From a virus: 21,935 nt of DNA. The DNA is taken from the IMG/VR virus record IMGVR_UViG_3300000226_000016, positions 1-21,935 of that record. The stretch is one strand, 5' to 3'. A model generated the notes under the pieces. That model was not told where the DNA came from. It did no database searches and worked only from the letters and a program-made list of their open reading frames with translations. The first letter of the stretch is position 1, and every line of letters begins with the position of its first letter. Positions 15,545-19,729 of the stretch are shown piece by piece. Position numbers and translations under genes: made by a program.

Positions 15545-15546
15545 AA

Positions 15547-15569
15547 CAAAAGCATCTTGCGATGCTTTT
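15547..15569 (-). terminator. intrinsic terminator after the 74-aa gene
   Basis: AAAAGCATC, loop GCAA, GATGCTTTT form a perfect 9-bp stem on the minus strand, followed by GTTTTTTAT. It starts two bases after the 74-aa stop codon and ends just before the tape measure promoter-like motif. Confidence 0.82.
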
Positions 15570-15570
15570 A

Positions 15571-15795
15571 TTAAAAGTTGTATGTGGATGAGGGATTAAT
15601 ATTTGGTGAATGAATTTTATCATCTCCTATATTAGATCTCCCTTGTTGTTTATCTATTTCTTCCTGTTGTTTTTTATTAAATTCGTTAATCTTATTAATA
15701 TGAAAGGATCTCATCCAAACAGGCATATTATATACTTCCGAGTGTAGAAACCCACCGCCTCCATGGTACACTAAGTCGTGAATCTGAGCGAACAT
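15571..15795 (-). CDS. small tail-assembly protein, probably also made as a frameshifted extension of the gp26-type protein
   Basis: A 74-aa protein from its own ATG: the segment IHDLVYHGGGGFLHSEVYNMPVWMRSF (5-31) followed by a charged helix (INEFNKKQQEEIDKQQGR). Its reading frame stays open upstream of the ATG back to 15849, 45 bases into the gp26-type gene. The extra codons read GLTPSYRNI before the Met, which looks like natural protein. A TTTTTTT run (15823-15829) in the overlap would let ribosomes move from the gp26 frame into this one by +1 or -2. The position between tail tube and tape measure is that of G/GT-type tail assembly chaperones. An AGGAACATA sequence before the ATG also allows independent initiation. 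Confidence 0.72.
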   Translation of the reverse strand: MFAQIHDLVYHGGGGFLHSEVYNMPVWMRSFHINKINEFNKKQQEEIDKQQGRSNIGDDKIHSPNINPSSTYNF

Positions 15796-15802
15796 TATGT
15801 TC

Positions 15803-16567
15803 CTATAGCTCGGCGTCAGGCCAAAAAAAGTTGGCAGTAATGGGTATTGTTAACGTCTCGAAGTCACCATTACTAGCTTCGCGTTCAAAGGTTAAATCTG
15901 TGTCTGGTTGGATTTCATTAATATATTGCCTTAATGCTCTAGCATCTCTAGCTAATAATCCTTTATCTACAAATTCTCTAATTGTCTTTTTTTCTGAATC
16001 ACCATTCACAGAATTAATAATATATTTCATACGAGTAGATAATTCTGGATTTGATTTTTTATTAATCTTTTTTAATCCTTTAATTTCTTTAGTTACTGCT
16101 ATATCTCTTCCATGTGTCATAAAACTAAATGTTATTTCTATTTTAGAAGTTGGTAAAGTGTAAGAAAAAATATTTGATTTAGCATTTTGGACTTCTTCAT
16201 GTAGGGGTTTATCTTCTATTGTAGTAAGATCAACTGAGTGGTTTTCTCCCTCATATTTAAAAGTATAATCACTACCATATCCTAAAATACGTGCTGCTAT
16301 TAATATAGCATTTTTATCACCTATTAATAAATCATCATAATTAATAGGTGTTACTATTAAAGATTTTATTAGTCTATCTATTACTGATCCATCTTTTATG
16401 TAATTTTGATTAGTTAATATGTCTTCCTCTAAAGCTGTCATATACTTCATTTCTATGGTTCCTTTAGATAAGGGTGATTTTGGGTCATACAATATCCCAG
16501 TTGATGGTAGTGTTACTTCTTCTGTAGGATATTGAAATTTGTTTTCTGTTTGTTGCATGTTTTCCAT
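15803..16567 (-). CDS. 26: T4 gp26-type baseplate protein / probable tail assembly chaperone
   Basis: A 254-aa protein with the signature of the T4 gp26 baseplate family: LPSTGILYDPKSPLSKGTI, then EMKYMTALEEDILTNQNYI and DGSVIDRLIKSLIV (about 20-72), followed by LLIGDKNAILIAARILGYG (79-97). It is somewhat longer than T4 gp26 (208 aa). In T4, gp26 takes part in hub assembly. The position here, between tail tube and tape measure, is where other tailed phages encode their tail assembly chaperones. The C-terminal end reads ITANFFWPDAEL, with the FF codons inside a T7 run six codons before the stop that could direct a frameshift into the 74-aa frame. It has its own promoter-like motif and follows an intrinsic terminator. 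Confidence 0.85.
   Translation of the reverse strand: MENMQQTENKFQYPTEEVTLPSTGILYDPKSPLSKGTIEMKYMTALEEDILTNQNYIKDGSVIDRLIKSLIVTPINYDDLLIGDKNAILIAARILGYGSDYTFKYEGENHSVDLTTIEDKPLHEEVQNAKSNIFSYTLPTSKIEITFSFMTHGRDIAVTKEIKGLKKINKKSNPELSTRMKYIINSVNGDSEKKTIREFVDKGLLARDARALRQYINEIQPDTDLTFEREASNGDFETLTIPITANFFWPDAEL
15820..15832 (-). other. candidate programmed frameshift site
   Basis: The gp26 frame reads AAC TTT TTT TGG, while the 74-aa frame reads TTT TTT GGC. A tRNA-Phe in the P site can re-pair perfectly after a +1 or a -2 slip. The product would be about 331 (+1) or 332 (-2) residues: gp26 to F248, then GLTPSYRNI, then the 74-aa protein. I did not identify a stimulatory hairpin downstream. Confidence 0.5.
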
Positions 16568-16615: not shown

Positions 16616-16645
16616 TAGAAAAAGCGCCAAAAATAGGCGCTTTTC
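16616..16645 (-). terminator. intrinsic terminator after tail tube gene
   Basis: AAAAGCGCC, loop TATTTTT, GGCGCTTTT form a perfect 9-bp GC-cored stem on the minus strand, followed by more T residues (TTCTATT). It lies about 20 bases after the tail tube stop. This is the strongest terminator in the window. Confidence 0.9.
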
Positions 16646-16666: not shown

Positions 16667-17152
16667 TTAGTAATTCAAGATGGCGTAATCCATTCTAATA
16701 GTAATTGAAATATTTGCTGGTGTGTCTGAAGCCCAATCAAAATCTCCAAAGTTAGCTGCTTTTACATAAGCTCCTTTACAAATCCATTCTTCAACAACAT
16801 CACCTACAGGACCTAATGCATTAAATCTAATGTCTTTTTTATAGAAATCAGAATAACCATCTCTACCTGTTACAGATTCGTGAGATAATCTAACCCATTC
16901 CATTACTGCTTGTGCACCTGATGGTGTTACTGGATCATAAAGATCGGCTGTGATGTCTTGCCAATCAGCTTTTCCTTTCAATTTTCTTTTCACGTTAATG
17001 TGGTCAAGAGTTACATCATTGAATGAAATATTTGGTCTACCTACTTTTTTTACTATAAATGCTGGAATTCCATCGATGTACATTACAAACCTATTTTGTA
17101 ATTTAGGTTCGAATGCTGTGAACATCATTTCGTTTGTATTTAATATTGCCAT
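16667..17152 (-). CDS. 19: tail tube protein (T4 gp19 family)
   Basis: A 161-aa protein, the same size class as T4 gp19 (163 aa). Family features are an N-terminal FEPKLQNRFVMYIDGIPAFIVKKVGRPN segment, the central KADWQDITADLYDPV, AVMEWVRL, and the C-terminal WICKGAYVKAANFGDFDWA with the final NISITIRMDYAILNY strand. Copies stack into hexameric rings to form the inner tube through which DNA passes. It lies directly after the sheath gene, the same order as T4 genes 18-19. It has its own promoter-like motif and a strong terminator, which fits separate high-level late expression of this abundant protein. AAAAAGATG surrounds the start. Confidence 0.95.
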   Translation of the reverse strand: MAILNTNEMMFTAFEPKLQNRFVMYIDGIPAFIVKKVGRPNISFNDVTLDHINVKRKLKGKADWQDITADLYDPVTPSGAQAVMEWVRLSHESVTGRDGYSDFYKKDIRFNALGPVGDVVEEWICKGAYVKAANFGDFDWASDTPANISITIRMDYAILNY

Positions 17153-17203: not shown

Positions 17204-19729
17204 TTATGCAGGGAATGTTGCTCCTGTTGGTAAAATGTTAAAGTCTAAGATTATATATTCAGCTGTTTTAGTTGGTTGTAAGAAAATACCACCTACTAAT
17301 TGATTTCTATCAACAACATCTGGTGTATTATTACTTTCATCCATTTGTACTCTAAATGCATATAATCCTTGTCTTTGTTGTACTGATTCTAAGTAAGGAT
17401 TAACTATATTTAAGAATCTATTTCTTGTTGCTGTTGTATTTTGTTCGAATACTAAGTATTTCGAAGAACTTGCAATAAATTTCTTAAGTGCAATTAATAA
17501 TCTTCTAACATTAATTCTATCAAGAGCTGTTGATCTTGATTGTAATGTTTTCTGACCCCAAATAACTGGATTTCCTATTCCAGGGAACGTTGCTATTGGG
17601 TTAATTTTATTATCATATAATTTATCTCTTTCAGCTTGGTTTAATCTTATTTTAGCTTCCATTACACTACCTAATATACCTCTATTTAAACCTGCTGGTG
17701 CAAACCATTCTGCTGCAATTGCATCTGAAGCTGCTATTGCTCCTGGTACAATTACTGATGGCGGTACTAATATTGGCTTATTAGCGGCAGTATCTAGTAC
17801 TTTAACCCATGGATAATAAACTGCAGCGTAGTTGCTGTCTAAACCAGATACTGTTGATACTGCGCTATTTACTGAAGCATCTACTTGTGCTAAATCCATT
17901 ACAAAGAAGCAATCTCCTCTATCTTCTGCCATTTCAACTGTGTAGTTTGTAACTAAAGGATGAAGTCCATGTATAATACCTGGTACAGCTACCATATTAA
18001 TATCATATTCGTCTTGGTTTGAAATAATATCTATTGCTTTTTTATACCCTAAATACCCCTTTTTTGTAGGTGAACTAAAATCAAATCCATATAAATTACT
18101 TCCGTTTGTATAAGCAGTTGCTAATGTTGTTTCTGATCCTGTAAATTTAACTATATCTGGTCTTAATCCATCTTCACCTCCTTGAAAAGGAACTGAGAAT
18201 TTTAATTGGTTAGCTGTTGGTCCTGTTGAACCATCTGATGATATTGATTGGCTTAATGAACCTGTCCATAAACTTGAACTTTTATGTCCATGATGATTTT
18301 CTACATTAAAGTGTTTTGATATATTACTTTCTAATGTAGATGGTAATGGTTTTATCCAATTTATATTTTCTGTAGATTTATCATCAAATTTCCACCCTAA
18401 ATATCCTTTACTTGAATAATTTGTTCCTATTACCTGTGTTCCTTCGTAAGATGCTGATGGGAAGACACAATTCATACTTAATGATGCTGTTGCTATTGGA
18501 TTATATACTGCTTTAAATCCTTTTGGAGACAATTTAGGTGTGTAAGCTTTTGAACTTACTGATTCTGCAACTTCTACTCTAACATAATCAGATATATTTG
18601 TGTAAAAACCTAATATTTCTACTTTATCTAAAGTATCATTATATTGTGGGTATTTGTCTCCAATTTTTCTACAGATATAATTTGGACTATCTGGATCTAA
18701 ATTTACATTAGAATATGTTTCTACTGGTTTTTGTGATCCGTCTGTGTCATTAAATTTTCTTATTGAAACTGTAAAAGTTGAGTATTGTTTTTTACCATCT
18801 ATATCTGCTGGTTCTTTTAAATTTGAAACAGATGCTTTATAATCCATATTACATGAAGTACCATGAGCTATTGTATGTAATTTAAATAAATCTTTTCCGT
18901 TTCCGTTTTGAAGTTGTGATTGAATCCAAGGTGTAGAAGCATATGAGTATCCTTCTGATTGTCCTATATTTCCATTAAAAGTTAAATTACTTGATTGTGA
19001 AACTATATATAATGAACTACCTGAAGTTAAATGTCCAAACCCTGAAGCTGAAGGGTATCCTGATATACTAGTATTAGCTACTCCTGTTACTAAAGATGTT
19101 TGTAATGACTCAAAATTATTATACATGTATCCTGCTGATCCTGAATATATAATAACTCCTGTTTTACTAGTATTTGCGTTATATCCTAATTGATCTGGAA
19201 GATATTGAGCACTAGCTGGATTTATTGATGCTGAATAGTTTTGTGTTGCTATTGAAGTTCCTGCTAATGTTAAAGCAAAATTAGTATTTAATGTTTTACC
19301 TCCACCTACAATACCTTCCAACAATGAACTTTGTAAACTTGGTTTAGATACTTGTTTAGATGGGAAAATTGTTGCGACAATTAGACCTTTATTAGCATGG
19401 GTAAATGATCCTGTTTTTGCTGCTAAACAGAAAAATTCATTTGTTCCGTTATCATATGTATAACCTCCTCCTGCTAATACTCTTGTTACAGTTACAGAGC
19501 CTGCTGCTCCTAAATATTCTTTTACTGTTTGAGGTACAAATGTTTCTGTTGATAAGTCTCCAAATTTTTTCGTGTATTCTCCAAAACTACTTACTACTGT
19601 TGGTACGAATGCTGGTCCTTTAACTGTTGGTCCGATAATAGCGGCCCCTATTTGTCCTATTCCTTGAGGTAAATAAGAAAGATCATTTTCTCTCGTAAAT
19701 ACTCCTGGTGAAATTATTTGTTCTGCCAT
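17204..19729 (-). CDS. 18: contractile tail sheath protein (T4 gp18 family)
   Basis: An 841-aa protein with clear sheath features at both ends. The N-terminus has ISPGVFTRENDLSYLPQGIGQIGAAIIGPTVKGPA and the EYTKKFGD pattern. The C-terminus has RLNQAERDKLYDNKINPIATFPGIGNPVIWGQKTL, then DRINVRRLLIALKKFI, FEQNTTATRNRFLNIVNPYL and a final AEYIILDFNI strand. These C-terminal domains form the contractile mesh around the tube. The protein is about 180 residues longer than T4 gp18 (659 aa). The extra length falls in the middle (roughly residues 100-500), which is Ser/Tyr/Asn-rich and less conserved-looking, so it probably makes surface-exposed domains. The start codon is preceded by AAAATAAAAAG. The gene is preceded by a promoter-like motif and a terminator. 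Confidence 0.95.
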   Translation of the reverse strand: MAEQIISPGVFTRENDLSYLPQGIGQIGAAIIGPTVKGPAFVPTVVSSFGEYTKKFGDLSTETFVPQTVKEYLGAAGSVTVTRVLAGGGYTYDNGTNEFFCLAAKTGSFTHANKGLIVATIFPSKQVSKPSLQSSLLEGIVGGGKTLNTNFALTLAGTSIATQNYSASINPASAQYLPDQLGYNANTSKTGVIIYSGSAGYMYNNFESLQTSLVTGVANTSISGYPSASGFGHLTSGSSLYIVSQSSNLTFNGNIGQSEGYSYASTPWIQSQLQNGNGKDLFKLHTIAHGTSCNMDYKASVSNLKEPADIDGKKQYSTFTVSIRKFNDTDGSQKPVETYSNVNLDPDSPNYICRKIGDKYPQYNDTLDKVEILGFYTNISDYVRVEVAESVSSKAYTPKLSPKGFKAVYNPIATASLSMNCVFPSASYEGTQVIGTNYSSKGYLGWKFDDKSTENINWIKPLPSTLESNISKHFNVENHHGHKSSSLWTGSLSQSISSDGSTGPTANQLKFSVPFQGGEDGLRPDIVKFTGSETTLATAYTNGSNLYGFDFSSPTKKGYLGYKKAIDIISNQDEYDINMVAVPGIIHGLHPLVTNYTVEMAEDRGDCFFVMDLAQVDASVNSAVSTVSGLDSNYAAVYYPWVKVLDTAANKPILVPPSVIVPGAIAASDAIAAEWFAPAGLNRGILGSVMEAKIRLNQAERDKLYDNKINPIATFPGIGNPVIWGQKTLQSRSTALDRINVRRLLIALKKFIASSSKYLVFEQNTTATRNRFLNIVNPYLESVQQRQGLYAFRVQMDESNNTPDVVDRNQLVGGIFLQPTKTAEYIILDFNILPTGATFPA

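Follow-up and report, generated by a model that had tools for sequence, protein, structure and literature searches.

Two open reading frames lie at the tail-chaperone position of a viral DNA of 21,935 nucleotides (IMG/VR record IMGVR_UViG_3300000226_000016; its full length is called the window here), and the question is whether they are two genes or a single recoded one. In phage lambda, the tail chaperones are a short product, gpG, and a frameshifted long product, gpGT (Xu et al. 2004, reviewed in PMC5009743). Such frameshifting is widely conserved, and the T4-type phages are the stated exception to it (PMC5009743). A preliminary description of the window proposed a programmed frameshift of either +1 or -2, which joins a gp26-type gene to a downstream 74-aa ORF as the T4-type equivalent of G and GT. 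The comparison of related sequences makes it very probable that the locus is indeed one recoded gene, encoding the tail assembly chaperone pair of a contractile-tailed phage distantly related to T4.

On the minus strand, the window carries, in this order, the sheath, the tube, the gp26-type gene, the second frame and a probable tape measure gene (Table 1). The last of these gave no family match in the profile searches of this window; its counterpart in phage immuto is annotated as a tail tape measure protein. Among the relatives, a tube gene lies upstream of the gp26-type gene in 120 of 129, and the second frame is followed by an ORF of 300 aa or more in 112 of 113. The overlapping pair is thus located between the tail tube and the tape measure, as is typical of G/GT-type genes. 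A pattern scan found three terminator-like inverted repeats against 0.9 expected. The terminator-like repeats of Table 1 flank the gene pair, which suggests that it forms its own transcription unit.

Table 1. Features of the tail-chaperone locus and its neighbours in the window
Feature	Position	Strand	Basis or remark
Tail sheath protein	17204..19729	-	phrog_23, E=9e-72
Tail tube protein	16667..17152	-	phrog_4542, E=1.7e-28
Inverted repeat between tube and gp26-type genes, possible terminator	16620..16644	.	Pattern scan
Short chaperone gene (TAC-N, G equivalent), gp26-type, 254 aa, C-terminus ...TANFFWPDAEL	15803..16567	-	phrog_150, PF12322
Predicted 5' RNA hairpin (GC.AGUAAUGG ... CCAUUACU.GC)	15834..15877	-	Ends 4 nt before first slip codon
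Spacer CAAC; with the first UUU in the P site, AAC occupies the E site	15830..15833	-	Sequence
Slippery run UUU UUU U (codons 15829-15827, 15826-15824, then UGG)	15823..15829	-	YTT.YTT.T in 135/135 distinct +1 junctions
Second frame (+1), predicted post-slip product GLTPSYRNIM..., end 15571	15571..15849	-	Open frame; GLTxxYR conserved in relatives without start codon
T-type C-terminal extension FFGLTPSYR...	15571..15828	-	AlphaFold2; DUF6760 match below cut-off
74-aa ORF as mechanically called	15571..15795	-	ATG not conserved
Terminator-like hairpin directly 3' of second frame	15545..15572	-	
Probable tape measure protein, 725 aa	13333..15510	-	Assigned by position and size only

The 254-aa and 74-aa ORFs, the T-run at 15829-15823 and the open frame from 15849 were all found at the coordinates given previously. 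In the overlap, the minus strand reads AAC TTT TTT TGG CCT GAC. The second frame is offset from the gp26-type frame by +1 (which equals -2), and a stop at 15850-15852 precedes the open stretch. A slip here would yield ...NFF-GLTPSYRNIMFAQIHDLVYH..., the predicted junction peptide of the fusion being ...ITANFFGLTPSYR, and a -2 shift would add one F.

The alignment of homologues put forward as a check on the frameshift was carried out with 80 relatives collected from IMG/VR via the 254-aa protein, 80 more via the fused alignment and 4 genome contigs. Four loci are cut by a contig end, and in all of the 160 that extend past the end of the gp26-type gene the second-frame domain is present. The slippery site and the frame offset are conserved in 134 of the 136 distinct related junctions, the other two being one -1 offset (L042) and one without overlap (L112); these counts are not independent events, given the common descent of the relatives and the use of the fused protein as query in the second scan. 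Every one of the 134 carries YTT.YTT.T (130 TTTTTTT and 4 TTTCTTT), to which the window adds one further TTTTTTT, and the protein identity of the relatives reaches down to 34%. The search patterns accepted synonymous alternatives and therefore could not introduce an artificial bias towards TTT. TTC makes up 13% of the Phe codons in these genes, yet the slip site is YTT.YTT.T in 135/135. It is followed by CCT in 135/135, against 44% of the Pro codons, and by GAC in 129/135, against 25% of GAT+GAC. This bias fits dual coding, in which WPD and GLT are read off identical bases. FFGLT is invariant in 26 fused proteins of 32-90% identity, and the related group in IMG/VR comprises at least 592 stretches. 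Thus, a slip site and offset are conserved ahead of a second frame that is open without a conserved start codon, which is the pattern of G and GT. A separate observation is that GC3 rises from about 20% to 51% just 5' of the slip site, over the final ~50 nt of the gp26-type gene; the rise is also seen in clades that have no clear hairpin.

The preliminary description was correct about the frameshift and overlooked a hairpin just upstream of the T-run. In the window, this predicted hairpin is moderate, with an MFE of -10.8 against -4.4 +/- 2.2 in synonymous shuffles (p=0.013) and z=-3.3 at the 4-nt spacer; the modal spacer of hairpin-bearing relatives is 3 nt. In the main clade, GACGG..CCGUC-NNN-UUUUUUU is predicted to fold as three stacked 5-bp stems. 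Its 23 distinct sequences give 88.7% of cells paired, a percentage favoured by the structure having been derived from the same sequences; the compensatory count is the better measure; it stands at 29 two-sided cells, and the covariation is 0.233. These latter two values were reached by none of 500 shuffles, and slid versions of the structure score lower. All main-clade members stand at the p limit (0.003) against protein-preserving codon shuffles. Other clades place unrelated stems at the same site, e.g., GAUCCC..GGGAUC-ACG in L117/L118. The mean stability z over 122 junctions is -2.3 upstream and -0.77 downstream of the slip site. The conserved hairpin next to the E-site codon is strongest in the main clade and extends to about half of all junctions, z being below -2 in 57 of 123 and at or above -2 in 66 of 123. 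In phage immuto, the upstream hairpin is absent. As about half of the junctions have no clearly significant hairpin, and immuto none, the hairpin cannot be obligatory. Two other candidate stimulators were set aside. A downstream structure is weak, as the mean z above indicates, and the GAGGAG-rich stretches ~23-26 nt upstream in several clades are too far for the known role of an internal Shine-Dalgarno (SD) sequence and are explicable as Glu codons.

It has been reported that upstream hairpins placed at CUUUGA stimulate +1 and attenuate -1 shifts on 70S ribosomes in vitro, with a +1 stimulation of about 60% of that by an SD duplex (PMC6321510). A 5' hairpin stimulates +1 in yeast too (PMC3639245), and a 2016 review listed +1 stimulation by a 5' structure, beyond bypassing, just as a possibility (PMC5009743). 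The chances appear about even that a natural, evolutionarily maintained 5' hairpin stimulates the +1 shift here, replacing the internal SD duplex. Such a replacement, if true, would suit phages of Bacteroidota, as the host ribosomes sequester the anti-SD (PMC9976891); prfB in that Bacteroidota class retains an SD-like stimulator (PMC8710568). We infer a Bacteroidota host only from Flavobacterium phage immuto and from MAG contigs.

The same fused product could arise in other ways. It may be argued that RNA polymerase slips on the T-run, with the nascent hairpin helping, so that some mRNA has one U less or two more. In a Roseiflexus IS element, a stem-loop beside U5C5 drives such slippage (PMC5009743), and the present layout of hairpin, spacer and U7 resembles that of the element; the U7 lineages alone do not separate polymerase slippage from a ribosomal +1 shift. 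Nevertheless, the relatives with TTTCTTT or TTTCTA have no T run longer than three and keep the offset unchanged, which makes this explanation unlikely. U7 is, moreover, a short run for polymerase slippage.

The -2 half of the earlier '+1 or -2' proposal fares somewhat worse. Here, the ribosome would make the identical fusion, with one Phe more, by moving back two bases as in phage Mu (PMC5009743), and the window's own U7 permits re-pairing of the P-site UUU in both directions. The relatives, however, point to +1 rather than -2. TTTCTTT, found at four junctions and also in the isolate phage immuto (TTT CTT TGG), offers +1 re-pairing only (UUU to UUC, or CUU to UUU), and the slip site of LR756508, AACTTTCTA (AAC TTT CTA TTC), likewise allows +1 and not -2. 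In addition, a hairpin behind the ribosome should oppose a backward movement (PMC6321510). The frame offset as claimed is thus retained, the comparative data favour +1, and a -2 shift is very unlikely. The first Phe codon, a UUU followed by Y, is the one +1-compatible site in all the +1 sequences examined, including SP-15 and LIS04. The slip would probably occur at this codon, which would place the hairpin immediately upstream of the E-site codon, just as the SD duplex is placed in prfB.

The 74-aa ORF does not hold as a gene in its own right, its ATG being not conserved. Among the close relatives examined, this ATG is found only in L002 and L004 (89-90% identical), and its position is replaced in L111, L113-L117 and beyond. 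From the slip site to 45 nt beyond the stop, only 14 of the 134 distinct +1 junctions have an ATG, and 32 have any of ATG, GTG or TTG; in most relatives, the first ATG falls within the conserved YNMPIWLR core. That re-initiation past the 0-frame stop yields a small protein of its own from the second frame, with no fusion, is hardly credible: the window's ATG does lie 10 nt from the first base of the stop codon with AGGA before it, and separate adjacent genes exist in L112 and several eCIS loci, but relatives at 65-70% identity lose the ATG and keep GLTxxYR, 102 of 134 have no ATG, GTG or TTG in the region at all, and the synonymous positions of the slip site are conserved. As the second frame usually has no start codon, the fusion is most probably the real long product of the gene. 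None of the three alternatives (-2 shifting, polymerase slippage and separate translation) explains all lineages. The GenBank annotations of L082 (MW353176.1), L085 and L086 miss the fusion; they either place small ORFs that start at internal ATGs or call no ORF there.

Of the profile families, phrog_150 (T4 baseplate hub) matches the 254-aa protein with E=5e-10 over positions 2-233; the PF12322 score is 19.2 bits, below its cut-off of 24.5. The second-frame domain of the window gives 18.9 bits (E=0.0016) with DUF6760 (PF20546), for which the cut-off is 27 bits. DUF6760 matches in 21 of 50 relatives with E up to 0.1, the best being 8e-6, and in Bacteroidota genomes it gave 3/395 hits, all of them within contractile-system loci. 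AlphaFold2 predicts three helices in the T part (residues 6-22, 29-34 and 37-63; mean pLDDT 75). T4 gp26 and gp51 both match PF12322 (8.8e-64 and 3.9e-52) and phrog_150, and gp51 alone carries a C-terminal extension. In the model of a close T4-like gp51 (L097), the helices of this extension span 206-221, 226-230 and 234-248 and resemble those of the T domain. With hhalign, the extension and the T domain align at E=0.004, a score reached by none of 200 column-shuffled decoys; the T profile was not significant against T4-like gp51 in HMMER. The T-domain model had no significant match in BFVD, and the gp51 model had none in PDB. The predicted structures and the alignment are only suggestive of homology between these extensions, for which the sequence support is weak. 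That gp26 and the second ORF are the T4-type equivalent of G and GT is supported here; for T4 itself, it is already known that gp26 and gp51 are such a short and long pair as separate genes (Vladimirov et al. 2022). As PMC10885494 reports with reference to that work, some T4-like phages have a short chaperone gene and a long fused one.

The domain pair is also found in other arrangements. In two lineages (L042/L059; LR756511), it is joined via -1 at U UUU UUC. The same -1 site was noted in L042, L059 and L087, with predicted downstream structures of -15 and -23 kcal/mol in 70 nt. Only one relative, L112 (3190-3300), has separate genes with the slip site gone: it reads TTC TTC TGG CCA GAT ATT TAA, and its T part stands as a distinct ORF that starts at an ATG and in which FFGLT is preserved (MDVSNKTRNQLAFFGLTPES). 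This single contig may represent either a gene split or a bypass-like gap; as a split, it would make the fusion dispensable at least once. In two Bacteroidota loci resembling contractile injection systems (L192:859-1623, L193:859-1623), PF12322 and PF20546 are in one ORF after a gp19-like tube gene. Further eCIS-like loci (L191, L194-L199; plasmids and one genome contig) have adjacent 'phage tail assembly protein' and DUF6760 genes, and in L191 the second frame overlaps and has no obvious start codon.

The comparison itself establishes the frame, the slip site, dual coding, the missing start codon, the gene position and, in the main clade, the covariation of the hairpin. From these we infer slippage, its direction, codon and rate, the action of the hairpin and the functions of the proteins as follows. 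Most ribosomes would make the 254-aa short form, the counterpart of lambda gpG (TAC-N). Some would instead slip +1 at UUU.U, the P-site tRNA-Phe shifting from its UUU to the UUU that overlaps it by two bases (UUC in some relatives); the first of the two Phe codons is the simplest place for this. These ribosomes would then read ..FF-GLT.. and complete a 331-aa long form, the counterpart of gpGT (TAC-NC), whose T domain is small and predicted to be helical. The hairpin may re-form behind the ribosome beside the E-site codon and favour the forward move, taking the role of the internal SD duplex of prfB. If the proteins act as in lambda, the short form might coat the tape measure and the T domain recruit the tube protein, neither product being expected in the virion.

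As far as sequences can tell, what is new is that gp26-type chaperones use a +1 shift accompanied by a conserved 5' hairpin, the chaperone frameshift itself being known. A large T4-related group thus appears to frameshift, and in the less usual +1 direction. The same or a closely similar domain pair is encoded variously through frameshifting, as separate paralogous genes, as adjacent genes or as an in-frame fusion. The hairpin would provide a natural and easily tested example in which a structure behind the ribosome promotes forward slippage, for which the examples so far are synthetic constructs. The annotation is also corrected in records like Flavobacterium phage immuto, where the T part was missed or called from an internal ATG.

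The locus shares with lambda gpG/gpGT the overlapping ORFs between the tail tube and tape measure genes and the short and long products; it differs in a shift that is probably +1 at UUU.Y rather than -1, in a G part of the T4 gp26 family and in the conserved hairpin 5' of the site. With T4 gp26/gp51, it has the gp26 family in common, along with a longer partner whose C-terminal extension (206-248) is predicted to be helical; in T4, these are two separate genes on opposite strands, with no frameshift. SPP1 gp17.5/17.5* (PMC6316719) is likewise a tail chaperone pair, and its UUUUUUC site is the one used by L042 and LR756511, although its shift is -1. Closer in direction is the haloarchaeal myovirus HSTV-2, in which the tail chaperone frameshift was judged very likely +1 (cited in PMC5009743); it belongs to another virus group and is compared by description only. 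The attenuator hairpin of SARS-CoV and the synthetic +1 stimulators (PMC3639245, PMC6321510) also lie a few nt 5' of the shift site, but the former attenuates -1, and +1 stimulation was shown in synthetic constructs only. In E. coli and Bacteroidia prfB (RF2), the duplex is formed between SD and anti-SD, unlike the intramolecular hairpin here, and a stop codon stands at the site; both have a YUU in the P site followed by U, a +1 shift and a duplex located upstream, roughly one codon away from the P codon.
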